From: Manduca sexta
Taxonomy: Eukaryota > Arthropoda > Insecta > Lepidoptera > Sphingidae
Direction of reading: 5' to 3'
Assembly (NCBI RefSeq): GCF_014839805.1
Contig: NC_051124.1
Span: 10,106,001 to 10,170,000 of the forward strand
DNA: 64,000 bases
Shown here: piece after piece, positions 1 to 47,425 of the stretch
Layout: the number at the start of each line of letters is the position of its first letter
Numbering within the stretch: position 1 is the first letter of the stretch
Notes under the pieces: model-generated
The model's input: only the letters and a program-made list of their open reading frames with translations
Told to the model about the DNA's origin: nothing
Database searches by the model: none
Translations under genes and position numbers: made by a program

Positions 1-371
1 AATGCTATAGGCTATATATATGATGAAACATGATGCAAAAACGGGGACAATTTATTAGTTTTGAGAGCTTCTGTTGCGTGCGCTGCGTAAACGGTTAAAG
101 TTATGCAACAATAATGTATGACGGGATTGTTCCTCTTAAAAAGTTCTACAAAAATATATCATAAAACAAAAGTCCCCCGCTGCATCGGTCTGCCCGAACG
201 TGTTAAACTCAAAAACTACCCAACGTATTAGGATAAAATTTGGTATGGAGACAGTTTGAGACCCTGGGAAGAACATAGGCTCCCGAGAAAATATATAGCG
301 TGACTTTTATAACGGAAAACTTTAGCCCGAAAAACTTTATAACGCGGGCGGAGCCGCGGGCAAAAGCTAGT
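1..371 (+). mobile_element. Helitron-like element, 3' tail only
   Basis: The 3' part of the same element that is present more fully at 371-1478 and 1479-2489, cut by the window edge. It ends in a GC-rich hairpin (GCGGGCGGAGCCGC), then CAAAAG and CTAG at 367-370 followed by T. A short 3' hairpin with a CTRR end inserted before T is the hallmark of Helitrons. The tail differs from the two downstream copies at only a few positions, so the array is young. No coding capacity, so non-autonomous. Confidence 0.6.
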
Positions 372-1478
372 ATACTATTATATAAAGCTGAAGAGTTTGT
401 TTGTTTGTTTGTTTGTTTGTTTGTTTGAACGCGCTAATCTCAGGAACTACTGGTCCAAACTGAAAAATTCTTTTTGCGTTGGATAGCCCTATTTTCGTGG
501 AGTGCTATAGGCTATATATCATCACGCTATACCCAATAGGAGCGGAGCAGTAATGCCTAATCTCAGGAACTATCGGTCCGAACTGAAAAATTCTTTTTGC
601 GTTGGATAGCCCTTTGTTCGTGGAGTGCTATAGGCTATATATCATCACGCTATACCCAATAGGAGCGGAGCAGTAATGCCTAATCTCAGGAACTACCAGT
701 CCGAACTGAAAAATTCTTTTTGCGTTGGATAGCCCTTTGTTCTTGGAGTGCTATAGGCTATATATCATCACGCTATACCCAATAGGAGCGGAGCAGTAAT
801 GACTAATCTCAGGAACTACCGGTCCAAACTGAAAAAATCTTTTTGCGTTGGATAGCCTTTTGTTCGTGGAGTGCTATAGGCTATATATCATCACGCTATA
901 CCCAATAGGAGCAGAGCAGTAATGGCTAATCTGAGGAACTACCGGTTCGAACTAAAAAAATCATTTTGTATTGGATAGCCCTTTGTTCGTGAAGTGCTAT
1001 AGGCTATATATCATCACGCTATGACGAGCAGAGCAGTAATGGCTAATCTCAGAAACTAGGAGTTTGAACTGAATAATTCTTTTTGTGTTGGATAGCCCTT
1101 TGTTCCTGGAATGCTATAGGCTATATATATGATGAAACATGATGCAAAAACGGGGACAATTTATTAGTTTTGAGAGCTTCTGTTGCGTGCGCTGCGTAAA
1201 CGGTTAAAGTTATGCAACAATAATGTATGACGGGATTGTTCCTCTTAAAAAGTTCTACAAAAATATATCATAAAACAAAGTCCCCCGCTGCATCGGTCTG
1301 CCCCAACGTGTTAAACTCAAAAACTACCCAACGTATTAGGATAAAATTTGGTATGGAGACAGTTTGAGACCCTGGGAAGAACATAGGCTCCCGAGAAAAT
1401 ATATAGCGTGACTTTTATAACGGAAAACTTTAGCCCGAAAAACTTTATAACGCGGGCGGAGCCGCAGGCAAAAGCTAG
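371..1478 (+). mobile_element. Helitron-like non-autonomous element, full copy B
   Basis: Starts with a TATACTATTATATAAAGCTG terminus directly abutting the end of the upstream copy, then a (GTTT)n run, about 5.6 units of a 123-bp minisatellite, and the 3' tail ending in hairpin plus CTAG (1475-1478). The same 5' sequence followed by the 'gctaatctcaggaact' segment recurs in a short solitary relative at 58772-58942, which supports this definition of the ends. No transposase frame is present. Assignment to Helitrons rests on the 3' end and the absence of terminal inverted repeats. Confidence 0.6.
434..1115 (+). repeat. 123-bp minisatellite inside Helitron-like copy B
   Basis: Units begin with 'ctaatctcagg' at 434, 557, 680, 803, 926 and 1043, giving periods of 123 bp four times and then 117 bp. 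Each unit contains 'gttggatagccct', 'gctataggctatata' and 'aataggagcggagcagtaatg'. Short ORFs across it are artefacts of the repeat. Confidence 0.9.
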
Positions 1479-2489
1479 TATACTATTATATAAAGCTGGA
1501 GAGTTTGTTTGTTTGTTTGTTTGAACGCGCTAATCTCAGGAACTACTGGTCCAAACTGAAAAATTCTTTTTGCGTTGGATAGCCCTATTTTCATGGAGTG
1601 CTATAGGCTATATATCATCACGCTATACCCAATAGGAGCGGAGCAGTAATGCCTAATCTCAGGAACTATCGGTCCGAACTGAAAAATTCTTTTTGCGTTG
1701 GATAGCCCTTTGTTCGTGGAGTGCTATAGGCTATATATCATCACGCTATACCCAATAGGAGCAAAGCAGTAATGGCTAATCTCAGGAACTACCGGTTCGA
1801 ACTAAAAAAATCATTTTGTATTGGATAGCCCTTTGTTCGTGAAGTGCTATAGGCTATATATCATCACGCTATGACCAATAGGAGCAGAGCAGTAACGGCT
1901 AATCTCAGAAACTAGGAGTTTGAACTGAATAATTATTTTTGTGTTGGATAGCCCTTTGTTCCTGGAATGCTATAGGCTATATATATCATCACGCTATGCC
2001 CAATAGGAGCGGAGCAGTAATCGCTAATCTCAGGAACTACCGGTTCGAACTGAAAAAATATTTTGTGTTGGATAGCCCTTTGTTCCTGGAGTGCTATAGG
2101 TTATATATCGTCACGCTATGACCAATAGGAGCGGAGCAGTAATGAAACATGATGCAAAAACGGGGACAATTTATTAGTTTTGAGAGCTTCTGTTGCGTGC
2201 GCTGCGTAAACGGTTAAAGTTATGCAACAATAATGTATGACGGGATTGTTCCTCTTAAAAAGTTCTACAAAAATATATCATAAAACAAAAGTCCCCCGCT
2301 GCATCGGTCTGCCCGAACGTGTTAAACTCAAAAACTACCCAACGTATTAGGATAAAATTTGGTATGGAGACAGTTTGAGACCCTGGGAAGAACATAGGCT
2401 CCCGAGAAAATATATAGCGTGACTTTTATAACGGAAAACTTTAGCCTGAAAAACTTTATAACGCGGGCGGAGCCGCGGGCAAAAGCTAG
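1479..2489 (+). mobile_element. Helitron-like non-autonomous element, full copy C
   Basis: Third tandem copy, joined to copy B without intervening DNA. It has the same 5' end, a shorter (GTTT)n run, five minisatellite units and the same 3' tail ending CTAG at 2486-2489, followed by ordinary AT-rich sequence. Its internal units match copy B units 1, 2, 5 and 6 by their diagnostic variants plus one extra unit, so unit gain or loss has occurred since duplication. Confidence 0.6.
1530..2142 (+). repeat. 123-bp minisatellite inside Helitron-like copy C
   Basis: Units start at 1530, 1653, 1776, 1899 and 2024. Compared with copy B, the units equivalent to B3 and B4 are absent. A 60-codon ORF at 1939-2121 is only repeat sequence. 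Confidence 0.88.
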
Positions 2490-3529
2490 TATTTAATATG
2501 TCTTCTATCGTTCAAGGTGTTGAATGTGTTATATTTCATTGTATTACCAATGTATTGCATTACATAATTTTTACTCTTTTTTTTAGTTCCTGCTCATTAC
2601 GGCTAAGTTTAACTGATTTAATGTAAAAAGTAAATACACCGTGATTATCCTCGCAACACAGTAATTCCTAATTTAAACACGGTGCTCGGTAAATGGCAAA
2701 AGGCTCGCTGGCTGTAACATGGGACTTAACACAACGTGCGAAATGTGGATGATACAAACCTAGCTACTTTTGAAAAGCGTAATGCATGATGTTTTGTACG
2801 TATATATGAGTTTTATAAACAAACATTTCATAATTATTTGAGTAAACACTACAGATGTTTATCTTTTGATTTTTTAGCGATATGTTAACTAAACAACGTG
2901 AAAAGTTACTCTATCTCTTTCTTCCATTTTATCTCTACTTTGCCACTTTAAAATGACTTGTAAAAAATAATTATCTAATATATTTTTTTAAAAATTTTTA
3001 TTTCCACTTTGACACTATATAGTGTAATTTTTTATGTGATAAAATGTTGTTACTATGCACCCCTATCGTGCCCCCTATCAAATAAGATAAGATTGCAGAT
3101 GTATGCTAGTGAACTCCTGTCTAATCTCTACTGTGACAACAATGATACTGAAGCTTCCCTATCGCGATGAGTGATCGTTTTTCGTGCATTAGTGTTGCCT
3201 TTGTCATAGCGTCTTGAAGTATGAATTCATTATGCTAGACGGTTACATTGATTAGACATTAATCGTTTATCTGTAATTTTTTTGTTGTCTAACGGCCGGT
3301 TTATATAATTCCATATAATCGAGACGGATCGGAAACAGAATAGAACTGATCAGATAAATTTAATTAAATTTAATACTTTACAGATGACAAATGATCTTTG
3401 GGGCATTAATATTTAATGATCACGGGGAGGACTGCAGTCTTCGATGCACCCCCTTCCCCCTCTCCCTCTCCTCTAGTGGATTCAACCCAATCATAAACGT
3501 ATGTACTTGAGTTATTGGGGGACATCTAA
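2490..3529. other. Gene-free AT-rich stretch (Rim2 intron 6)
   Basis: No ORF, repeat array or motif I could support. I looked on the minus strand for the missing Rim2 C-terminal exon, whose expected start is the PHE[V/I].RTRLREEG signature, and did not find it. Confidence 0.5.
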
Positions 3530-4076: not shown

Positions 4077-7000
4077 CTGCCGACAAACCGGTTATTCTAA
4101 TGTCATTCTTATACAAATGTATTTAGGGTTGAATTTTCAATTATCGTATTTTATCTTACTTCTTTACCCCATTTGCCATTGGAATGTTAGCCGGCTTACA
4201 TGTTGAGCATTAAGTAGTTAGTGATATTATGAATGCGTATGTTTATGAAAAAGTTTTGTTTTATTAAAAGTCAACGGAGTAACCGCTGAACGATTTTGGA
4301 TGAAAATACGATCAATAAGTCTACTTTAACAATTCTTTTCACTGTTTTATTTAAATGTTTAATTGCTATTATAAAGTGTTGTAAATATGGTATTTGTTCT
4401 TAGTAATTAAATAAAGTTAGTAAAAAGATGTTATTGACATGAGTGTTTATTTCGGACTAAAAAGAAGTAACTATGGCAAACAAAATACAATTAGTTCTAA
4501 AAATAGAACATATAAAAAATAATAAGTCACGACGAAGGTTACAATCTCCAACAGCCGCCCTTAATCGCAGTTGTGACAGAAACAAAACAAATAAAATAAT
4601 TAAGTTTCTAAACCTAAGTTAACTACACATCGTTTGTGTGCTAGAGGTCCGAGGGCCTTCGTTAGTACATCAGCAGGCATATCGTTACTTTTTATATATT
4701 CTAACTTAACAATATTATTAGATACCTTTTCCCTAATAAAGTGAAACCTAGTATCTATATGCTTCGTCCTGCTGTGGTGTACAGGATTTCGAACAAGATT
4801 AATGGCACTTTGGCTGTCAGAAGCTAAGTTAACTGAACAAAGTATACCTGTTATCTCGTATATAAACCGACGTAAGTAACACGCTTCCTTCGTGGCAGAC
4901 GCTAATGCCATATATTCTGACTCGGCCGAACTTAACGCAACAGTAGGTTGCTTCTTGGATTCCCATGATACTGGACCTCCACTTAACTTGTAAACATAAC
5001 CGGTGTATGACCTTCTGTCGATTGGACAGTTTGCCCAGTCTGCGTCACAAAAACCCTTTAAAGGTTCTCTATTCTTCCTGTAAACCAATGAATAGTTTAG
5101 GGTACCTTTTAGGTATTGCAGAATCCTTTTAGCAGCATTCCAGTGTTCTTTAGTAAAACACGTATTAAATTGACTTAAATAGCTCGTGGCGTAAGCGATG
5201 TCTGGTCGTGTGTTTACCGCTAGATACATGAGGCATCCTATTAAGTTTTGATAAGGATAAGACTCACCGACTTGACCATCCATTCTTTTTCCATATTCTT
5301 TTTAATTAATGGAGTATCCACGGCCTTACAATCCTTCATATTAAATTTTTCTAATATAGAAAGAATATAATTTCGCTGGTTCAACCTTATACTCTCGGAA
5401 TCACTTTCAACTTGTAGTCCCAAATAACATTTCAGTATTCCGAGATCTTTTAATGAAAAATATTTCGACAAATCATTCTTGACAGTGTCAAATGTCAAAT
5501 CAGAATTAAAGAAGACTATTATGTCATCAACAAAGATTCCTAATATTACAAGTTCTTTACCAAAAGTTTAGTATACACACAAGGTTCGGAAGGAGTTCCT
5601 ATGAAACCTATTTTTAAAAAGCGTTTCATTTAACTTTTTATTCCAAGCTCGCGGTGCCTGTTTAAGACCGTAAAGAGATTTCTTCAATAAACAAACTTTG
5701 TTTTCTTTACCCTTTTCAATAAAACCAAGAGGTTGCTCCATGAAAACTTCTTCTTCTAAATCTCCGTTAAGGAAAGCTGTATCGACATCTAAGTGCTTCA
5801 TTCTCAACTTCATATCTGCAGCTATCGCAAACAACGTGCGGAGGGAAGAATGACGAATCACTGGTGCGAACGTCTCCTTGTAGTCTACACTTTCAACTTG
5901 ATGAAAACCTTTGACGACGAGTCTCGCTTTATACTTGATAATATTACCATAAGCATCCCTTTTAATTTTGTAAATCCATTTACATGGTATAACCTTTTGT
6001 TAGGTCTATCTACTAAATTCCATGTATGGAGTTTCCTTAAGGAACTATACTCATCAACCATAGCATGTTGCCACTTATCAGCATCATCGGCATGAGTAGC
6101 TTCGTAATATGTCGTAGGTTCATTAGAATCTACCATTGACGTATTGTAAGCTTTATAAAAATTTGTTGCTTTTCTATCTCTGGAAGGGTATCTGCGCTCA
6201 GGGTGCGATTCCTGTTCCAAATTCGCTGTCTCTTCTTCCACACTAGGCAGCCTTAAGTCACTGAGAGACTCTCGCTCTTCCAGAGTCACTGACTCTTTTG
6301 CACTTTCTAGATTTACTGGTAAAGTTGCTTCAGCCGCCGGGCTGATACTCTCATCACAGTCATAGAATTGACAGTCATGATCAAACTCAGAATCAATCTC
6401 TTTTTGCTCATCAAATAACAATATAGATTCTGACTGTGCGACAGATTGCTTCTGCTTTAGCGCTGTAAAGCAATTTTCAAAAAGGTTGCATCTCTGGATA
6501 TAATAACTTTTCGTGGGTTAGCAGGGTCCCTAAAAATATAAGTGCCTGGATTTTCAGAATAACCGACGAAAATTGCTTCCTGTGCCTTGACATCTAATTT
6601 CTTCCTGTGACACGAAGGTATATGGACTAGAGCTCTACAACCAAATACTTTTAGATGGCTAAGATCACCTTTTCGTCCATACCATTTGTCATAAGGAATT
6701 TGTCCACCTAAGGCTCGATGAGGAGACCTATTCTTAAGGTAAATGGCAACTTGGAATGCATCTTCCCAGAATGCTTTCGGTAGTGAACTTTCAGCTAGCA
6801 ACGTTCTTGCCTTTTCTGTAACCGAACGATGGGTGCGTTCCGCTACTCCAACTTGCTGAGGACTATAAGGCGTCGTTGTTTGATGTTCTATACCTTTTGA
6901 AGCAAGATAATCAACAAACTCTTTATTCACGAACTCCTTACCTCCATCAGTCCTAATTGCTTTAATTGTTTTATCTAACTGATTTTCAACAAAAACATTG

Positions 7001-10000
7001 AAACACACAAAATATATCTTTGACTTCTGTTTTAGAAGAAATAAAATAAGCAAACACTTTTCGCGTATAATCGTCTACTATTGTCAACATATATCTATTT
7101 CCTTGAAAAGAAGTTGTAGACACCGGTCCCATCAAATCCATATGGATCAGTTCCAAAGGGGAAGTAGCCCTATTAAACGCTAACCTTTTGAAAGGTTTTC
7201 TTGCTTGTTTACCTTCCACGCAAGCGATACAACTAGTTTTATCTACTCCTGTATACTTTATACCTACCTTGTGATTTTTCAATTGGTTCATGCCTATACG
7301 ACACAAATGTCCTAACCTCTTATGCCATATTTGATAACTATCCTGACAACCAGAGTGCACATCTTGTGTCAAAAAATATCCGCCACATTCTCGGAAACAT
7401 TTACAGTTCCATCTAAAACGTACAGTCCACCACAGGGCGAGGCATGAGCAACAGATTCACCTGTAAAATTAAAAGTATCAGATTTATAAAAGTTACATCC
7501 ATTTTTATCAAAAACACAAATAAAACCCTTTTCAACAGTTTTATATACAGATAACAAACTAGCTTTCAAATCTGGTATATAAGCAACATCACTAATATTG
7601 TTGACCACGTTCTCGGGCGTGTTTATTGAAATATTTCCAATTCCGCAGCACTTAATCTGTTCTCCATTTGCGACAGTAACAGTACCTTGATTCTGTATCG
7701 AGATATTCTGAAACCAGTCCCGTCTAGAAGTCATGTGTCTAGTACAACCTGAATCTACATAAATTATGTCCTTTCTTGGGTTTCCAGAAGTATTAAGACT
7801 TGTAAATATCGTATCATTGGTATTTACCGCATTGCCTTTCTCCTTCTTGTTTCTCTGTGGACAGTCTGGTCTCTTATGTCCAGGTGTCTTGCACTCATAA
7901 CAAACTATATTCTTCTTCATTGACTTAGGCTTCTTCTTCGCATGAAAAACAGAGTCTAATGACGTAGCCACATCTTTGGACATTTCATTAAGCAGTTTTG
8001 TTTTCACCAACTCTGTAGTCACGTCTACATTGCAATTTTCTAAAGCCATAATGAGAGGTTCATACCTTGGAGTTAGACCTCCCAAAAGTATTGCAGCAAT
8101 AGACTTGTCCTCTATGACTACATCAATATCCGCAAGATCCTGTGCGGTTGACATAACTGCGTTAATATATAGTTCAATATTTTTGAACTCTGATAGACTC
8201 AACCTGTACAGTCTACGCTCCAAAAATAATCTTCGTCCTATTCCCTTATCTTCAAAGGCTTTTTGCAAACAAGTCCATGCCTCAGATGCAGTTTTCGCAC
8301 ATCTTATATGGGTTATCGCTGCACCTTCTACTGATAAGCATATCTTTGCTAATGCCTTTGCGTCTTTGCGTACCTTTGTAGAGGCATGGGTTGTGTCTCC
8401 ATCTCGGTATCCACTAATTGTTTCCCATAAATCCTCATGGATAAGGTAATTTCGCATCTTGAACTTCCAAGTCGGATATCCATCTTTTATCCTCAAACAA
8501 GGAAATGGAAAAGATGTGATCGACGCAGGGAATTTTTCACACTCGAAACATCTCCAGATTCATGTGACATTTTCAGACTATTACTATTTCCTAGTCACAC
8601 AAAAAATATATTCAACTTTATTTTACTAAATAACGTGAAAAAAAAAAAAAAACTAAGAACTAAGCGTTCGTGCTGATAACGTGTTGTAAATATGGTATTT
8701 GTTCTTAGTAATTAAATAAAGTTAGTAAAAAGATGTTATTGACATGAGTGTTTATTTCGGACTAAAAAGAAGTAACTATGGCAAACAAAATACAATTAGT
8801 TCTAAAAATAGAACATATAAAAAATAATAAGTCACGACGAAGGTTACAATCTCCAACATAAAGTAATTTGCGTCATCTGTCCGTATTACTTACACTTCTA
8901 TTCCCGTCCACGTATTGTGTTTTATAATTTATTTAAAATTATGATTATGACTTCTCAATAACAAATTGTAAGTAAGATATAGATCTTTTTCTGAGTAAGG
9001 ATGATTTTTTCATAATCCAAACATTATGAAAAAAATAAAAATATTAAAAATAAACATGTATGCATGGCTTATAAAGAATAAAAGAAAAACGATCCTCATT
9101 ACAGTTTCTCAGAGAAAATTTTATACCGTAATCAACTTAATTTTTTAATTATTAAAATTTTATGACAATAACAAATTAAATAATAATAACCGCAAAAATG
9201 CTCAAAATACTGCACGCTTTTTTAAAAGGACACGACAAAGCGACTCCACTGCACCTGATGGTAAGTAGAGTGGAGTTCAATAGAATGTCGACTGGCGACT
9301 GAAGAGAGATGACTAACCCTTGACAGTCGACACAATTATGCTGGTCTATTGGAACCGGATATACACAGGCTGATCCCGGAACGCGACACATTTACGTGGG
9401 CCGCTATGGCGGGTTTTAACACCTTGTGTACGGTTCCTATCCGGGCGGATATAAAATATAACCTACCACCAGTAACATGTATCCATTGTAACTTGTAACT
9501 TATAACTTGCAAGGATATTGAGTGACATTGTTGATGAGATGTGAATTAAAGGAATAAATAATATAATCTAATGAGTGTACGTACCGACTTAGCATATATC
9601 CTTTTAATGCATTGCAGAGCCGTCACGTTTTGTCCGTCGAGTTGTAATCGAGTCTTCACGAACCATATCGGGTTGGTCATTGTGCACGACACGAATCCTG
9701 CAACGACGAATTTCATTATAATATTGTTTATTTGCTTACTTTACTGAGATATGTTCTTTTTGCTGATGATTCTGCATTCATTATCTGCTTACTTTACTGA
9801 GAGATTTTTTTTATTTTGTTTTGTTGGTGATCCTGCAGTCTACACCGAGGGGAACCTGCGAATGGGTTACTGGTTCCCCCCGGCTTAACGACTGCAGGTA
9901 CAGAGAATGGGAAGGGGAATAGGATAATAGGGATAGGATAGAGGTTGGAGAGGGAAGGATGTATTCGCTGTATACCGGTGGCAGGGGTTTTCAGATTGAT

Positions 10001-16000: not shown

Positions 16001-19000
16001 AAATCAATAAATATGCTTTAATTATGGACACTTTCGAAATGTATAAAATAGAGTTTATATTCCATAAAAAAAAAAAAACAAAATATAGAAGAGCTTAGTA
16101 AGTAGACTGCAACTTTCTTTTGAAACAAGCCAGCACGCGACCGCAGAAGCAACATAAAAAAATATATTAAAACATAATGAAACTAAAAACGGTTTACAAA
16201 GTTAGATAACACATTGGCTTAACTATCTAAATAACACTCTGTAATTATTTAGCACGATTCAACAAATATTTGAAATAATTTCACATCTACTCGAAACATT
16301 GTAAAATTTTACGTGGGTAGCCCTTTAACTAACTTATGTAATAATTTAGGAAAGAATACATACACAAAATTTTGAATAGAGTCGTATTACCAATATTATT
16401 GTAGTACTTGCATATATTTAAGGCTATCTATAGGTACTATTAAAAATTGGCAAGGGCAGCTGGAGCCAAAGGAAATTTTACAACTATAACCAACTACAGA
16501 GTTCGTGTACTAACAAGTTTTAACCCCTCCCCAGCGATATAAATGATGGGTTTATGTAAAAAGGTCGTGTCTACAACAAACATTTTATAAAACCAGATGT
16601 GCACCAGCTGCAAGGACCCCTGCGATCTTCACTTCACTTTACCATAGGTTTATACTATAATCAACGTTCTACGTCTATCGAGTCACAGCAAATATTGATT
16701 TTAGTATCGGCATAGCATAAACAAAATTAATACACAATTTTGATCAATATCATATAACAATATAATCAGCTATTTCGTCCACGCGGGCAAAGCCGTCTTT
16801 TTGCAATTACAGGCGTTCTAATAAAAGGCCATCTTTGGAAGCCGTATAGGTAAATAGGGGATTTTTTTTACGTATTTTTGATTTTTTATCTTTTAATTAT
16901 ACGATTATCAAAGCTGTCTTTCCATTAGAACGCCCGTAATTGCTAAAAGACGGGTATGCCTCACTAAACAGAATAGGGCATTCTTACTATGTTAGTATTG
17001 CGAACAGATTTTTGCCATCGCCAAAACGCGATTTCAGTGCAGCGATAGGTTGGAAATCGTAAGAACGCGATACAAACATAAACGAAGGCCACACTAGCAG
17101 ATTGCCGATACTAAAACTATAGTATGCGCTGCGGCCCATATCTAAAGTCTAAACAATAACACATCCACGTTTGCTAAATGATGATAATGTAGAAGCAAAC
17201 ACGTAGAGCTTTACACAAGTGATGGAAACAATATTGAGCGTTAATTAGGGCTTAATGTTTCCATACTGGCAACGCAAAATACATATTGGACAGATAAGAA
17301 ATATTACATTGGCTTATACCTTAACTTGGTGTATATTCAAATGCAGTCCTTTCATAGCCTGTGTTATATTACCTAACGTTCTGTATGAAATGAAATAATT
17401 TATTTGGACCTGTTGAATGTTATACATTATTTAGATTCCGTCAATATTAACTCTACCGCCAGTTTGTAAAGCAGTTGTCACCAGAGAAGAACGGGCAAGA
17501 CACTCTGGTGTTGCTCTTTTCAAAATCAGTTAAAGGATTAAATTACAGTACATGATGCACAGAAAAGAGAAAAATTACAATTGTTTTTTTTTATTGCTGT
17601 TTCGAGCAGTTCATTTCATTCTACTTAGTCTGGCCATAAATACTGTTACACTTAATTATAAAAAAATATTACATTTGAATTTCGAATCTGTCATTTTTAT
17701 ACGATTGTTCATTGTGTTTTCTCATTTTGGCGCCAATACATTGTAAAATATTTTGCGATATTAAAATGGTGTGGGGTGATAAAGAGAACCGAATCGCTGT
17801 GATAGCATTACACAAAGTAGGTATGGAGCCAAATGCAATTTTTAAAACTCTCCATACACTTGGTATTAGTAAAATGTTTGTGTACCGGGCTATTAATAGG
17901 TACAATGAGACCTCCTCTGTTTGTGACAGAAAAAGATCTGGCCGTCCACGTAGTGTTCGTACGAAAAAGGTGGTCAAAGCAGTAAGGGAAAGAATTCGAA
18001 GAAATCCTGTCCGAAAGCAAAAGATTTTATCTCGGGAAATGAAGATAGCACCTAGAACCATGTCGCGTATTTTAAAAGATGACTTAGGACTTGCAGCCTA
18101 TAAGAGACGCACTGGCCATTTCTTAACTGATAATTTAAAGAAGAATAGGGTGGTAAAATCGAAACAACTACTGAAGCGGTACGCAAAGGGAGGTCACAGA
18201 AAAATTTTGTTTACGGATGAGAAAATTTTTACAATTGAGCAACATTTTAACAAACAAAATGACCGTATTTATGCTCAAAGCTCTAAGGAAGCTTCCCAAT
18301 TAGTCGACAGAGTGCAACGTGGACATTATCCGACTTCAGTGATGGTTTGGTGGGGTGTTAGCTATGAAGGAGTGACTGAGCCATATTTTTGTGAAAAAGG
18401 TATCAAAACATCGGCACAAGTGTATCAAGATACCATTCTTGAGAAGGTAGTTAAGCCCCTTAACATCACCATGTTCAATAACCAAGTATGGTCCTTCCAG
18501 CAAGACTCGGCGCCGGGTCATAAAGCTCGGTCCACGCAGTCTTGGTTGGAATCGAACGTTTCGGACTTCATCAGAGCTGAAGACTGGCCGTCGTCTAGTC
18601 CCGATCTTAATCCGCTGGATTATGATTTGTGGTCAGTTTTAGAGAGTACAGCTTGCTCTAAACGCCATGATAATTTGGAGTCCCTAAAACAATCTATACG
18701 ATTGGCAGTGAAGAATTTTCCCATGGAAAGAGTGCGTGCTTCTATTGATAACTGGCCTCATCGTTTAAAGGACTGTATTGCAGCCAATGGAGACCACTTC
18801 GAATAAGCTTTTTATATTTTTAATTGTTTTATATTTATGTATTAAACTGACACACTGTAAAAGTAATAAATGTTATTTGCAGTTAACAATTTTCTTTTTT
18901 CTTTATTACAATATTTATGGCAAGACTAGGTATATTTGTATATAACAATCAACAATAATGTCCATCACCTTTAATGATGTTTGTGACGGAGTTTTTCCAC

Positions 19001-31490: not shown

Positions 31491-32461
31491 TTTAGCGCCA
31501 CAAGTAAAATTACATGACTGCAAATTGCGACTGTCTATAAATAAACAAAATGCAACACCACTTATTATAGCAACGTACACATACGATTCAAAACACTGAT
31601 AGATTACAGCAAAGAAAGTTATTTAGATTAATGGTTTATTGAAACTGAACTATAATGATCTTTTTGTGAAAATTTTTCGTATTTTTCTTGTAATATTATA
31701 ACAAAATCGGCGAAAAACTTCGGAGCACCACAACCGTGCACATTCGTCGTCGTAACAATTTACGCACACAAGTCGTGATCAACATCGAAACACGACTCAA
31801 CTACGCACACTAGTAAAATTATCAACGACGTACGTGACGTCTCGGCGGTCGGCATCAGCAACTTGACCCTGATTGGCGGGCCGGAGGAATTTCGCGGGGG
31901 ACGAGGTAAAGACAAGACAGAAGACGTCTTGCGTACCAAGTTAGAGTGGGAAAAAATATTTTGTTTTTTATGGCACAATGTGTCACTGTCAATATTGTTG
32001 TTGTGTACTTGTCAAAAATCTTCCGAAAAATATTACGGAAAAATATTACATCATCTGAACATATAAATTGTTTCTTTTTTTATGTAAATGTTTAATAAAA
32101 ATCTTATTTGGTTGTATTGTTATTATCTGTGTGTTTAATACATGACTAATATATGATTTTAAATTTAATGAATAATAAATTTATTACTATATTATATTGC
32201 TTCACAGTCATTATCTACGTACTAAAAATATTTTGTTACATGTAGACAATGAATATTTCATAATAATTAACACAATTTGGAATATCCTTCGTAAACGCAC
32301 ACAATTCAACGTCAGCTGATTTGACAATTGACATTTGAACATTTGTGAAAAAAGATTTGTTGCATAATTTCACGTTATTGATAATTTGCCATCGATCGGT
32401 CTGAATCCGCCGGCCGGTGTCCTACAATTATTGTGCTAGCATACCTCAACCGCTAACCACG
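31491..32461. promoter_or_regulatory. Divergent Rim2/Sod2 promoter region
   Basis: The two start codons face away from each other with 971 bp between them. On the Rim2 side there is a CCAAT box on the minus strand (31876-31872) within a GC-rich patch, and TGACGT (31835-31840), which resembles a CRE half site. On the Sod2 side a GC-rich patch (32400-32420) precedes the coding start. No TATA box is evident. Transcription starts are inferred only, perhaps 31780-31860 for Rim2 and 32380-32440 for Sod2. Confidence 0.5.
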
Positions 32462-32493
32462 ATGTTCGGTACACGCAGGATTGGATCCGTAAT
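32462..32493 (+). CDS. Sod2: Sod2 exon 1
   Basis: Ten codons plus AT, then donor GTATGT at 32494. A competing GT at 32489 would end at a codon boundary and break the frame with exon 2. The 32494 donor gives ATT (Ile) across the junction and the presequence [15 protein letters not shown], as expected for lepidopteran MnSOD. Confidence 0.92.
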
Positions 32494-35400
32494 GTATGTA
32501 AACCTTTACCATGATCATAGTTTATGTAGTATGCTAATTAATAATTACTTTGTCGCATTACCGTGGATGTTTTCTTGGTCTTTAAGTCGTACTGTGGGGG
32601 CGTCTCGGCAGAAGCACACACTACCCGAGCTGCCTTATGAGTACAGCGCTTTGGAGCCGGTTATCAACCGGGAGATCATGAGCTTGCACCACAGCAAGCA
32701 TCACGCAACTTACGTCAACAACCTCAATGCGGCTGAAGAGAAGCTGGCGCAGGCACAGTCCAAAGGTTGTATGTTATGTATACTACGGTTTATGTAATAT
32801 TTTAACCAAGTAAATATTTCAATTAATGTCATCTAATAGTAGTAAAGGAAATCACACGAATATTAAATAATTATTATTCTCCAAATATATTTAAACAAAA
32901 TGTGCAGTATCTCAATATCTTAAATTAAAAAAAAAAACATTGAAAATATAGTTTATCATTTATTTTCAATGATTGATGGAACCCATAATTTTTTTTTTCT
33001 AATTAAATAAATGCAAAAATTTAATATACTGTTTATCAGGATCTGTTATTGCAAAACTATGCAATAATTCATGAAAAGTAGGAAATTATAAATGGTATAT
33101 ACCTTGGCAGCAGCAGATACGAACACAGTATTGGGCCTGCTGAGTGCCATTAAGTTCAATGGTGGTGGACATGTCAACCACTCCATACTTTGGTTAAACC
33201 TGTCACCATCCAAGACTGAACCTTCTCAACCATTTAAAGATGCTGTTGCACAGTAATTTATTTTGTGTTTCTTTTTTATTGCTGTTAATGTAGTTATTTG
33301 TAGAAAAAAACAGTCACGATTTAATATCTTGTAGAGAATAAGCTATAAAAATTAAACTATTTTATGGAATTTATTGCAGTTTTTATATTTCAATTTTCTC
33401 TTGAAGTTTCAAAGACTTCTTAGCCTTCATGGTTACGGGGAGGAGGGTGGACAGACACTGACAGTGTGAAGAGAAAATTAAAATATAAAAGCTGTGATAA
33501 AATCTAAAAAATAAATTTATTTTAATGTCTAACATTCACATAAACATAAGAAATCATTGTAGAATGAGATATGTAAAATTTGTATCAAGTATTTTACTGT
33601 GCAGTGTAAATAAAAATAGCAGATACTTGTATTAAGAATTCTCAATGGTAAACAGTAAAATTTTCAAAAGGGATACAAAATCTTAACCTATGTTCATGTT
33701 TTGTTGATTGTAGCACTTATATCACAAGTATGCAAAGATAAGTTAGTAGGAATTGTATTATTGATATCGTTCACCAGTGATGTTCCTATAATTATGTACT
33801 TGAGAGCATCATAAAATTATTTACACACACCTTTATAACATGTTATTTTGTTTGTCATTCTGATTTATTGTGTAATTGCTGATTATAAAGTTAATGCAAT
33901 TATATAGGGTATTTACAAAGACTGATTACACAGGGCAAAAAAATAAACCATTCAAGATATCACAATTTACATTGCAGTGGGATGTTTAACTTGAATCTAT
34001 TCGCAATACATTCTATGTACATATATAGGATTTCGCTTATTTGTATATTTTACGTAAAGGGTAACAGCAAAATTTTTAAATCATTAAATATTGTGTAAAA
34101 TACAAACTATTTTCCATGAGTAATACACCTGGTATAATGTTGAGATTGCATAAAATATCAGGCAGGTTACTTAAAACAAAGAAATGTGAATATACTATTA
34201 ATACTTAGTATTTTTGTATAATTATGTACACACATACTATAATTATTAATCAATATGCATTGTATATCGAACAATTTATGTCACATAATTTATATCGTAC
34301 AATACATTTATGTGAAATTAAATTATAACATTCTGTGCATATTCCTCAGGTGACATTGACACAATAATCAATTTGGCACCAGCTCTTAAATTCAACGGAG
34401 GTGGTCACATCAACCACACCATCTTTTGGCAGAACCTCTCGCCCAATGGCGGTAAACCATCAGACGCACTCACCAAAGCTGTTGAGAAGTAACTATGAAA
34501 TTGTATTTTGCATGTCCAATAGTCCATACTAACTGGATCATTTTGTAATATCTCTTTGGTGATTTGTCTTGGTGCTTAATTTGTTAATTTCGTGAGCTAG
34601 TTGTTTTGTCCTGGATGGGATAATTATTTTTAATTTATTTTTAAAATAATATATCACTTATGAAAAAAATTATGGAAATTGCATTCATTGCATTACAGGG
34701 TTTGGTCAATAATTGTGAATAATATACAGTAACATCTACTTATTTTTATCGATACTGCATTAAGCTTACGTAAACATCATATGTATTGTTTTCACCACAC
34801 TATACTCAATAGGGGATACTCAAGAAATGTTTTAATTGGACGCAACTTTAGATGGAAAATCAAAGGTTTCTTCATTATGACGTAGCCCAAAAATTCATGA
34901 AAGGTTTAATTCATACTAGCTTTTGCTCGCGGCTCCGCCCGCGTTATAAAGTTTTTCAGGCTAAAGTTTTCCATTATAAAAGTAGTAGTTTCCCGGGAGC
35001 CTATGTTCTTCCCAGAGTTTCAAACTGTCTCCATACCAAATTTTATCTTAATACGTTGGGTAGTTTTTGAGTTTAAGACGTTCAGGCAAACGGATGCAGC
35101 GGGGGACTTTTGTTTTATAATATATTTTTTTAGAACTTTTTAAGAGGAATAATCCCGACATACATCATTGTTGCATAACTTTAACTGTTTACGCAGCGCA
35201 CGCAACGGAAGCTCTCAAAACTAATAAATTGTCCCCGTATTTGTAACATGTTTCATTACTGCTCCGTTCCTATTGGGTATAGCGTGATGATATATAGCCT
35301 ATAGCAATCCACAAATAAAGGGCTATCCAACGCAAAAAGAATTTTTCAGTTTGGACCGATAGTTCCTAAGATTAGTAAACAAATATAATGAGAAAGCTTC

Positions 35401-35771: not shown

Positions 35772-38240
35772 AATTTTACTAATTGCATTTTTGGAATCAG
35801 TATCGATCCCTAATCACCCCCTGATAGTTATTTTTGAAATATATTTCATGTACAGAATTGACCTCTCTACAGATTTATTATAAGTATAGATTAGTCATAT
35901 CATTTGTCTTATTTTTGTTGCAAGACTATTTATAATCTCAATCCATGCAATATTTTCAATAAAGCTATCATTATGTTTGTTTATGTTTAAACACATAAGT
36001 TCACCTTTGCCATCATATCACCTGGATCCATTGACGTCAATGACACTAGATAATGGTTTTTTATTTGTTGACTATTGATAACTCCCTCATTGTAGTTCTT
36101 TCTATAATGTATACTGTCTAGACTTATATTACGTATTCTTATGTGTAGTTATAATATGTCATGATAAAATTGTTATTGTAACTGTAATTATTAAGATTGT
36201 AAGTAAGTAAAAGTGGTAATGGAAAATAATTATTAGAGAATAGTTTAGCTTTGAATTATCAAATATATATTCAGATACTTAATTTTTTTTGAACTTGGAA
36301 TATATGTAGAGATTGAATAGCAGGCCATATTCTGCCTATCCCTATGGGATGCAAATGTGGTATTTTGCTCATTTAATGAAAGTGTTGCTATTTAATGCAA
36401 CATTTTAAGTTGTTCACACTTTAAGTTAAATGCCTAGAAACTGACTTCGATGTTGGTCATATTATTAAAAGCATCTCCAGTAAATGTGAAGGCTTTGAAG
36501 AAATAAATGTCACAAAGGAGTGTGAACAGGTAATTTTTTTTTATAGAAATCGTTGGAAAAGTTAATAAAAGGTTACAGCTAAAATAATGTTATTTTTTGT
36601 ATGCTGTTCATCAATGATGATAGCATTGTTTTATAATATCGGTTTTGAATATATTCGTTAACTGAATTATACACTGTTCCACAATTTACATTGTTTTAAA
36701 GTATTTTGTTTTTAACAACATTGATCATTTTATGTTTGTAATCGTATTCTTATTTGTTTTTTTTTTGTGTTGCATAAACTTTATTGTTTTCTTGCCATGT
36801 TAAAAAAGATTAACCAAGCACGATAAAAATAATTTTCATAATCTACATTTACATGCAATTTATGTATTTCCAGAGACTTCGGTTCATGGGAGAACATGAA
36901 GAATCAGCTGGCGAACTCGTCAGTCGCCGTGCAGGGCTCCGGCTGGGGCTGGCTCGGCTACAACAAGCAGATGAAGAAGCTCCAGATCGCTACTTGCCAG
37001 AACCAGGACCCTCTACAGGCTACCACTGGTAACTATCTATACTGGTAACTGTCTATAAATAAATAAACAATGATTTTCAAAAAGCATAGACAAACCATAC
37101 ACTATCAAATCATATGAAAAAATGGTTTTGCATGCATGCATACACATTCTTGCATTGACATGACGTGTGAAAGAGGTGATGTATTTCTACCACTATGAAC
37201 AAAAAAAGAAATTTAGAATTTGTCATGTATGTGAAGAGTATAAAACTGTCCAAAAGGGACAATTTCGATTCTAGCTTAAATAGACTAAAATAATTCGAGC
37301 TAATTCCATCGGTATAGATAATAATATAAATTTCTTATATGAAATATTCTAGGGGTTAAAAATGTGTTGCGTAGTTAACAGTTAGCTTCCGTTGGATTTA
37401 TTTTTCAAAAGGAACCTGAAACCTTACTACGCTGAGTTTCATAATGGGCTTTGCTACAGCTACCATTTGCTATTAGTTTGACTCTCAACTAGCGTGCTAT
37501 TGTGGGTAACAAAAAAATATGGTTCTTAATCATGATGAGACGGTACATATCTAAAATTGGTTCAGAGTACGTATAAGTTGCATAATATTATGAATAACTA
37601 ATGGTTGCCAATAAAACGACCTGATAGCACGGCGCCGTGCTGACTGTGTGGTGTTTATTGTCGTTGGGTGTACTAATGCCGCATAATGTGTTGCTCTCCC
37701 ACCTTGCTACTCACATTCCAGGATGTGACTAGCTCTCGCTTCTCTAAAATTTTTATTATTGGGAAAGAGGAGTAAAGCGGTTGAGCACTGTAGCATTACC
37801 GACTCTACCTGCAACATAACTATGCTATACACATAAGGTACCACGGCTTAATAACAGCCTTTTGATTTTATAGTAGTGGTGTAAAAATTGTTTGGCTCGG
37901 TTTTTATGACTAAAGTTTTGGGACGTTATCCCCCGCTATATGGACCTCGAAGACTTTCAAGAAATTATTTTGAAATGGTAGCGCAAAGCGCTGATGCAAA
38001 AAACATGATATCAATATATTAATCTTAGTCTGAGTTATTTTGGTAAAAAATTATTTTAAGTCACAGTGGTGAAAGTGGATTTTTTTTTCTCTAGGCTTGG
38101 TGCCCCTCTTCGGTATCGACGTATGGGAGCACGCGTACTACCTGCAATACAAAAACGTGAGGGCAGACTACGTCAAGGCAATCTTTGATGTTGCCAACTG
38201 GAACGATGTCTCAGCAAGATTCGAAAAAGCACTGAAATAA
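32462..38240 (+). CDS. Sod2: Sod2: mitochondrial manganese superoxide dismutase
   Basis: Five constitutive exons: 32462-32493, 32587-32765, 34350-34488, 36874-37028 and 38095-38240. All have GT-AG introns and join in frame to 216 codons, the size of other insect MnSODs. The first ~19 residues ([17 protein letters not shown]...) are Arg-rich without acids, a mitochondrial presequence. The mature part starts [11 protein letters not shown]. Mn ligands by alignment with human MnSOD: His45 (LHHSKHH), His93 (GGGHINH), Asp177 and His181 ([16 protein letters not shown]). It converts superoxide to hydrogen peroxide and oxygen in the matrix. Gly in the GGGH motif and Gln in CQNQDP are the manganese type. 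A second version of exon 3 (33114-33252) predicts a splice isoform. It is divergent from Rim2. Confidence 0.97.
32587..32765 (+). CDS. Sod2: Sod2 exon 2
   Basis: Acceptor TTTAAG ends at 32586; donor GTTGTA begins at 32766. It carries the mature N-terminus [11 protein letters not shown], first Mn ligand His45 in [14 protein letters not shown], and ends ...AQAQSK plus the first base of the next codon (phase 1). Both exon 3 versions supply the two missing bases. Confidence 0.96.
33114..33252 (+). CDS. Sod2: Sod2 alternative exon 3a (predicted mutually exclusive cassette)
   Basis: 139 bp in intron 2, open throughout, with acceptor GGCAGCAG and donor GTAATT. Read in the Sod2 frame it encodes [14 protein letters not shown], then [18 protein letters not shown], then a divergent tail ending FKDAVA and a split Gln codon. 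It aligns with exon 3 over all 47 residues without a gap, about 23 identical, and has the same length and phases. Ligand His93 and Trp97 are kept; Phe96 becomes Leu. Many silent differences in the conserved block (for example in GGGH codons) indicate an old duplication kept by selection, not decay. Two further in-frame acceptors (exon starts 33111 and 33117) change the start by one residue. Expression is not shown by sequence alone. Confidence 0.85.
33395..33545. repeat. LINE-derived 3' fragment in Sod2 intron
   Basis: 'gacttcttagccttcatgg...gctgtgataaaatctaaaaaata...taatgtctaacattcacataaacataag' follows the same module order as fragments at 46600-46750, 47338-47425 and 56630-56770. An old non-LTR retrotransposon tail is the likely source. 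Confidence 0.45.
34350..34488 (+). CDS. Sod2: Sod2 exon 3 (3b, canonical)
   Basis: Acceptor TTCCTCAG ends at 34349; donor GTAACT begins at 34489. It encodes [32 protein letters not shown] and [14 protein letters not shown] plus AA of a Lys codon. It carries Mn ligand His93. This version matches ordinary insect MnSOD and is taken as the default cassette. Confidence 0.97.
34916..35378 (-). mobile_element. Helitron-like element, inverted, in Sod2 intron 3
   Basis: Minus-strand copy of the element at 1-2489. The CTAG end is at 34916-34919, then the GC-rich hairpin and the same tail, but only one minisatellite unit (35270-35378). It is more diverged than the tandem copies are from each other, so older. 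The 72-codon ORF at 34852-35070 is repeat sequence. Confidence 0.65.
35640..35890 (+). repeat. Interspersed repeat with (ACAG)n run
   Basis: 'ttaaaatccgtcgagtagtt' is followed by a (ACAG)n tract at 35735-35769 and then 'gaattgacctctctacagat'. This arrangement recurs as a common lepidopteran non-LTR/SINE-type tail. Class not settled. Confidence 0.5.
36874..37028 (+). CDS. Sod2: Sod2 exon 4
   Basis: Acceptor TTTCCAG ends at 36873; donor GTAACT begins at 37029. It encodes [27 protein letters not shown] and [21 protein letters not shown] and the second-sphere Gln in CQNQDP are active-site features of MnSOD. The first A completes a Lys (3b) or Gln (3a) codon. Confidence 0.97.
38095..38240 (+). 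CDS. Sod2: Sod2 exon 5 and stop
   Basis: Acceptor TTTTCTCTAG ends at 38094. It encodes [20 protein letters not shown], then [20 protein letters not shown] and RFEKALK followed by TAA. It holds Mn ligands Asp177 and His181. Confidence 0.97.
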
Positions 38241-46299: not shown

Positions 46300-46750
46300 C
46301 ATTTCAAGACACTGTGAACTTATTCTGTGTAGATCGGACCGTCAATAGCTAAAACAATAAAAAATATATAATTGTAAATTGAAGGTCGATAATGTAACTT
46401 TGACTTTTAGGATGATGAACAGCTCAATCCCTCCAACTCACAGGGGGAAAATTAAAAAAAAAAACTGCTATAAAATGCCTAAGATACTGTGACCTCATTC
46501 TGCGAAAGTCAGGCCACCAACAGCTAAAAATTTAAAAAGTTGTATACATAATTGTAAAATGTAGGTAGATATTGTAACTTTGACTTCGGATGAACAACAC
46601 CTCAGTCCCCACCGTGACCATGAAGGCTGAAAAGTCTTCGAAACGTCGGGAGAAAACTAAAACATTAAAACCGCGATAAAATCCGAAAAATAGTTCAATT
46701 TTAATGTCTAATAGGACTTCCTTAAAATTGTTCACATTTAGAGTTTCTAT
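46300..46750. repeat. Diverged two-unit duplication plus LINE-derived tail
   Basis: 46300-46445 and 46485-46610 share 'aaga.actgtga.ct.attctg', '.caacagctaaaa' and 'attgtaactttgactt' in the same order. The second unit runs into 'tcttcgaaacgtcgggaga', a common non-LTR retrotransposon 3' module also seen at 56690-56705. Confidence 0.5.
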
Positions 46751-47337: not shown

Positions 47338-47425
47338 CTAAGGGGCAAGAAAATTATAACACAGAAACTGCGTTAAAATTCGTAATATAGTTTAATTTTA
47401 ATGTCTAACATTCGCGTAAACATAA
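47338..47425. repeat. LINE-derived 3' fragment
   Basis: 'aaactgcgttaaaattcg...taatgtctaacattcgcgta' matches the modules at 33480-33545 and 46660-46710. Confidence 0.4.

Follow-up and report, generated by a model that had tools for sequence, protein, structure and literature searches.

Mutually exclusive splicing of tandem-duplicated exons is known from the insect nAChR alpha6 and muscle myosin heavy chain genes, and PKM exons 9/10 and SLC25A3 exons 3A/3B are likewise mutually exclusive exon pairs. For manganese superoxide dismutase (MnSOD), encoded by Sod2, a single form per gene is generally assumed. The MnSOD-2 and MnSOD-3 enzymes of C. elegans are the products of two whole genes. They are two mitochondrial MnSODs in one animal, as stated in a passage of PMC2593702.

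In Lepidoptera, a study of Bicyclus anynana BACs (PMC3166123, 2011; BAC AC239114) includes 'exons 2 and 3 of Sod2' in its list of duplicated exons that have no nonsense mutations. For the silkworm, a passage of PMC4340916 (2015) says that both SODs exist as single isoforms and, as far as that passage goes, counts against a two-isoform reading. Among the matches listed in the open-licence full-text literature, we found no paper presenting the Sod2 pair as alternative isoforms; the main texts of PMC9218548 and PMC13072181 mention neither Sod2 nor superoxide, and a Sod2 isoform is absent from the passages of PMC9650554 on 'isoform X2' and 'superoxide dismutase'. The preliminary description of the locus had known of no described alternative exon at this place in insect Sod2. 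Among the matches listed, this holds for studies that describe the pair as isoforms, but not for the Bicyclus mention or for public isoform models (Bombyx, Epargyreus), and because such gene models and a one-clause mention exist the finding is less new than first claimed.

The window (the whole 64,000-nt stretch of Manduca sexta DNA analyzed here) contains a Sod2 gene on the forward strand. The coding part of exon 1 is short (32462..32493, donor GTATGT), and the N-terminus obtained by joining it resembles that of Bombyx; exon 2 (32587..32765) ends in phase 1 (AAA G/GTTGTA). Two versions of exon 3 follow, an alternative exon 3a (33114..33252, donor GTAATT) and the canonical exon 3b (34350..34488, donor GTAACT). 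The remaining exons are constant and include exon 4 (36874..37028), the source of Gln, and exon 5 (38095..38240), the last coding exon, which carries the stop codon and the sequence DVWEH(AY); we take DVWEH to hold the remaining Mn ligands. By the reading frame, a MnSOD precursor of 216 aa is obtained with either 3a or 3b, with five coding exons per isoform. This number is in line with the five exons given for BmSOD2 in a passage of PMC6379424. An ATG at 32567 was considered as the Sod2 start and dropped, since the N-termini of the Bombyx, Pieris and Epargyreus proteins point to the short exon 1 at 32462-32493; part of the protein searches and comparisons, the human alignment and the exon-3 tree were run with the shorter product from ATG 32567, which leaves exon 3 unaffected. 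Over 32417-32797 (forward strand) the reading frame that contains exons 1 and 2 runs without a stop through the 93-nt first intron, and an intron-retaining N-terminus or one starting at 32567 might also be translated.

Exons 3a and 3b are adjacent homologous exons flanked by the same constant exons. Both are 139 nt long and of equal phase, and they align without gaps with 23 of 47 residues and 80 of 139 nucleotides identical, in agreement with the coordinates, the 139-bp length and the roughly 23 identities first given for this segment. When the 3b peptide is compared with the interval between exons 2 and 3b, the best ungapped score is 133, in the frame starting at 33113, vs a maximum of 20 (mean -7.8, sd 7.1) in 200 dinucleotide shuffles of the same interval. 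A third exon-3-like copy was not found by tblastn with both isoforms over the 64 kb, the hits outside Sod2 having E values of at least 0.19. The motif FNGGGH.NH..[LF]W.NLSP is present in both exons as claimed, including His93 (human His74), presumably a Mn ligand, and Phe or Leu at position 96 (numbering of the five-exon model).

Different codons are used at 14 of the 23 residues that are identical between 3a and 3b, and the nucleotide differences are distributed over the three codon positions as 21/11/27. With sites counted by the Nei-Gojobori method (own script), the 47 codons give a dS of ~2.7 and a dN of ~0.42, whereas within the 19-codon block KFNGGGH.NH.I.W.NLSP pS is 0.90 and pN is 0.09, with differences at 4 of ~45 replacement sites. 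Since silent change is near saturation and replacements in the motif block are few, the two copies are old and their protein sequence has been kept, and the synonymous differences can be read, as was first proposed, as a sign of age and of selection at the protein level.

The 3a acceptor, NAGNAGNAG, is a run of three consecutive AGs (ttggcAG/cAG/cAG/ATACG, 33108-33117) with possible exon starts at 33111, 33114 and 33117, all of which keep the frame. The Bombyx 3a segment begins with ADTNT, equivalent to an acceptor at 33114, and the Epargyreus and Pieris segments begin with AADTN, equivalent to 33111; at the latter site an optional 3-nt extension of the exon (33111..33113) would replace ADTNT by AADTNT, as in the Epargyreus and Pieris models. 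The segment has an AG acceptor and a GT donor of its own in the right phase, as first noted, and may start at more than one of these sites. Pyrimidines occupy 8 of the 17 positions from -20 to -4 of the 3a acceptor (counted from 33114) vs 11-13 of 17 in four other acceptors.

Orthologs of exon 3a were identified in other Lepidoptera. A search with the window's 3a segment returned three proteins, among them Bombyx mori 'mn superoxide dismutase isoform X2' (P0001, E 2.9e-15); the other two (one unnamed, one 'Rhodomo...') resemble ordinary SODs. A search seeded with the Bombyx segment added, among the best 120 of 404 matches, Epargyreus clarus 'isoform X1' (P0005) and a Pieris macdunnoughi protein (P0004), and a search seeded with the Epargyreus segment gave no additional named lepidopteran among its 11 matches. 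The protein database is clustered at 90% identity and the 3a and 3b isoforms of one species are about 90% alike, which makes the absence of other species from these results uninformative. The window's 3a is identical to its Bombyx X2 ortholog at 35 of 47 residues and to Epargyreus clarus X1 at 32 of 47; for 3b, the window and Bombyx share 44 of 47. The X1 and X2 records are automatic gene models. Outside exon 3, Bombyx X2 equals BmSOD2 (P0007) at 70/70 and 98/99 residues, the longest contig given with each of the two records measures 15,277,987 bases, and the Leu of X2 at the sole differing position is also found in an unnamed protein (P0006) and in Bombyx mandarina (P0008). This near-identity indicates that X2 comes from the same gene as BmSOD2.

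The Pieris protein (247 residues) runs from inside 3a into 3b. The fusion is probably an annotation error brought about by the exon pair, the predictor having kept the frame, rather than a true transcript, and we read it as evidence for the presence of 3a in Pieris. At least 10 of 122 fetched proteins besides those of Bombyx and Epargyreus score higher against 3a than against 3b, by 2 to 19; resemblance to 3a by score alone is therefore not exclusive.

The exon-3 tree, built from 26 rows including four 3a and five 3b rows (nine lepidopteran rows), has one branch that separates the 3a rows from the rest (91/96, not starred) and another that separates the 3b rows (99/98). When 3a and 3b were tested against each other, each was set apart by a branch in 100% of the 200 bootstrap trees, and the pairing of 3a with 3b of the same species was rejected for both the window (p 0.005) and Bombyx (p 0.006). 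The rows group by exon type and not by species, and therefore the duplication predates the split of these families and the copies have not been homogenized; the predicted 3a/3b pair goes back to a single old duplication. Together with the Bombyx X2 and Epargyreus X1 models, the tree backs the initial view of the segment as an old second exon 3 that is under protein-level selection and gives a predicted MnSOD splice isoform.

The best tree does not show 3a and 3b as sisters, yet a constraint that unites the nine lepidopteran rows is not rejected (p 0.358). The sequence SAIKF of 3a is common to beetle, mosquito and plant MnSODs, and 3b has PALKF. The duplication may have occurred in the earliest Lepidoptera, or before them and followed by loss in other lineages. 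A row from Pectinophora, a gelechioid moth, falls with 3b, which would push the duplication further back.

The two copies differ in their level of conservation. Between the window and Bombyx, 12 of 47 residues differ in 3a. Exon 3b has 3 differences in 47 residues (Fisher p 0.022 against 3a), and the constant exons have 13 in 149 (p 0.005 against 3a); the faster evolution of 3a would be compatible with a looser or a changed role. Position 96 (human 77) is occupied by Phe in all 131 fetched relatives, a set that is biased to similarity as it comes entirely from word searches in the exon 3 region, and by Leu in the window's 3a. The preliminary description had presented the Phe96 to Leu change as a property of the second isoform. 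The change is present in the window but is not general, and since the 3a exons of Bombyx and Epargyreus, like the Pieris piece, retain Phe, Leu96 looks like a species-level change and not the meaning of the exon.

The lower constraint on 3a relative to 3b, Leu at an otherwise invariant Phe and the pyrimidine-poor acceptor all count against a functional pair. The latter two are also what could be expected if 3a were functional in other Lepidoptera and a decaying, rarely spliced relic in the window's species, where alone Leu96 is found and whose 3a end branch is the longest among 3a (0.22 vs 0.10-0.15). However, 47 codons drawn from the flanking intron sequence would be free of stops by chance in only ~3% of cases, both splice sites, the active-site motif and the ligand are retained, and the exon has kept its 35 of 47 identities with Bombyx; we regard a relic as unlikely.

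The reading frame bears on how the pair could be used. With 3a and 3b both included, the frame ends at codon 118, which lies 290 nt ahead of the last junction; with both exons skipped, it ends at codon 79, 129 nt ahead of that junction. Early stops arise with both exons or with neither, and therefore inclusion of a single exon alone makes MnSOD. RNAs with such early stops would be expected to be degraded by nonsense-mediated decay. The same arithmetic (139 nt is 1 mod 3, and double inclusion gives the stop at codon 118) would also suit a switch in which unproductive joint inclusion of 3a lowers Sod2 output and the 3a protein matters little. A poison exon needs no protein, yet here silent sites are near saturation with few replacements in the motif block, all three complete 3a exons retain the ligand, the glycines and WLNL (WQNL in the Pieris piece), and the gene models include 3a alone, in frame and without 3b. 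A role of 3a mainly as such a switch is accordingly quite improbable. Practically negligible is an origin of the pair by chance or as an annotation artefact, or of the Bombyx isoform from a separate gene, for which no supporting point was found and against which stand the score of 133 vs at most 20 in shuffles and the identity of X2 and P0007 at 168/169 residues outside exon 3, with the differing Leu common to P0006 and P0008.

As for the means of exclusion, the 1097-nt spacing between 3a and 3b and the GT-AG introns argue, on general knowledge, against splice-site crowding or mixed spliceosomes. RNA pairing was considered as an exclusion device but not adopted, the local fold being poor evidence for regulation. 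The segment 33240-33610 folds with a z score of -5.66 (none of 100 shuffles was as low), the predicted fold pairs the 3a donor with ~33594-33604, and of 15 windows of 371 nt taken along the gene, 33202-33572 has the lowest z score, -3.71 (next -2.10). The core of this structure is a fold-back element between 3a and 3b (33345..33526, without assigned strand) with two 58-nt arms, 81% complementary, and a 66-nt loop; it has relatives at 46606-46711 and 47348-47425, the copies being ~80% alike, and is more likely a small dispersed inverted repeat than a dedicated splicing element. Moreover, a complement of at least 10 nt to the 3a donor is not rare, occurring in 23 of 300 shuffles, and this donor is not alone in being concealed by pairing (mean unpaired probability of 0.22-0.29 vs 0.03-0.34 for the exon 2 donor).

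Other repetitive sequences were observed in the window. Within the long Sod2 intron that follows 3b, the segment 34913-35375 shares 90-92% identity with three longer copies on the opposite strand at the left end of the window (23-2492), a region that also contains a series of ~122-nt units (84-95%). Open frames at 4600-8496 on the reverse strand resemble, by eye, pieces of gag, integrase and RNase H of a Ty1/copia-type retrotransposon, and a 364-aa open frame at 17712-18806 on the forward strand resembles, also by eye, a Tc1/mariner-type transposase. An Rfam mir-2834 match (18557-18619, opposite strand) lies inside the transposase-like frame, which suggests that this miRNA family may be transposon-derived.

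By alignment count, exon 3 begins at residue 52 of mature human MnSOD and contains the positions Ile58, Leu60, Phe66, His74, Phe77 and Trp78, which in the window's 3a are Leu58, Leu60, Phe66, His74, Leu77 and Trp78. Passages of PMC9208312 and PMC3646814 place Ile58 and Leu60 at the tetramer interface, with a loss of stability in human variants at these positions, and assign Phe77 and Trp78 to the outer sphere of the active site. The outer sphere as listed in a passage of PMC9208312 consists of His30, Tyr34, Phe77, Trp78, Trp123, Gln143, Trp161 and Glu162; the window's 3a product lacks the full set, as it has Leu at 77 and keeps Trp78, and the other positions lie in constant exons. The 3a product combines GGGHVNH from 3a with Gln (exon 4) and DVWEHAY (exon 5) from constant exons. 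The arrangement of GGGH and Gln we take to be a Mn-type marker, and both isoforms would be expected to bind Mn and to be active.

The best PDB match of the window's 3a product is 3dc6 (E 6.8e-87). Both Pfam SOD models, those of the Fe/Mn SOD N- and C-terminal domains, are matched by the 3a proteins of Bombyx and Epargyreus. Modeled with AlphaFold, Bombyx 3a and 3b reach pLDDT values of 84.1 vs 84.5 and show similar helices in the N-terminal half, a fold that cannot tell activity; the 3a model matches solved MnSODs of C. elegans and human (3dc6, TM 0.84-0.93), the top structural matches being C. elegans MnSOD-2 and MnSOD-3. The exon swap would alter only ~47 residues, that is, the second hairpin helix from residue 52 (human numbering) onward, with its interface positions and His74/His93, and the loop after NLSP. 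The difference between 3a and 3b would probably tune the stability of the tetramer and the surroundings of the active site, and not create a new enzyme.

On the sequence evidence, we are confident in predicting that Sod2 exons 3a and 3b form a conserved mutually exclusive pair giving two MnSOD isoforms; the pair is real and very probably has a functional role. We propose that a single old tandem duplication of exon 3 gave rise to the mutually exclusive pair, and that splicing would connect exon 2 with one of the two, 3a or 3b, and this one with exon 4, so that a full-length MnSOD precursor results in either case. Exon 3b would represent the predominant form and 3a a minor one or one limited to certain tissues; as the 3a acceptor is weak and 3b is more strongly conserved, 3b may be the default and 3a may need help.

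It can be speculated, with considerable doubt, that the pair provides a splice-switched second lepidopteran MnSOD with altered quaternary and catalytic behavior, in which mixed 3a/3b tetramers might tune stability, product inhibition or peroxide output by tissue or stage (flight muscle, metamorphosis, diapause). This tentative idea comes from the residues that 3a changes around interface position 58 and, in the window's species, from the change of Phe77 to Leu. Given that 3a has been kept apart from 3b since before several lepidopteran families split, measurements of 'SOD2' in the silkworm and in other Lepidoptera may reflect a mixture. The exon pair is also a natural experiment that can show which residues of the active site and the interface are free to vary.

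The duplicated Sod2 exon of Bicyclus anynana probably corresponds to 3a and 3b, although its wording could mean that both exons 2 and 3 were doubled; it is a single clause, and the terms 'alternative' and 'alternative splicing' are absent from the main text of that paper (PMC3166123). The Bombyx X2 and Epargyreus X1 models contain the orthologous 3a in an otherwise ordinary MnSOD, under names that are silent on the exon pair. With nAChR alpha6, myosin heavy chain, PKM and SLC25A3, the Sod2 locus has in common adjacent homologous exons of equal phase, by which one homologous region of the protein is swapped. Unlike in those systems, the segment swapped in Sod2 bears a metal ligand of a mitochondrial antioxidant enzyme, and whereas C. 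elegans has two MnSOD genes, the window has two exons in one gene. The Sod2 pair is a hardly described instance of mutually exclusive exons, unexpected in that the exons contribute to the active site of a housekeeping antioxidant enzyme.
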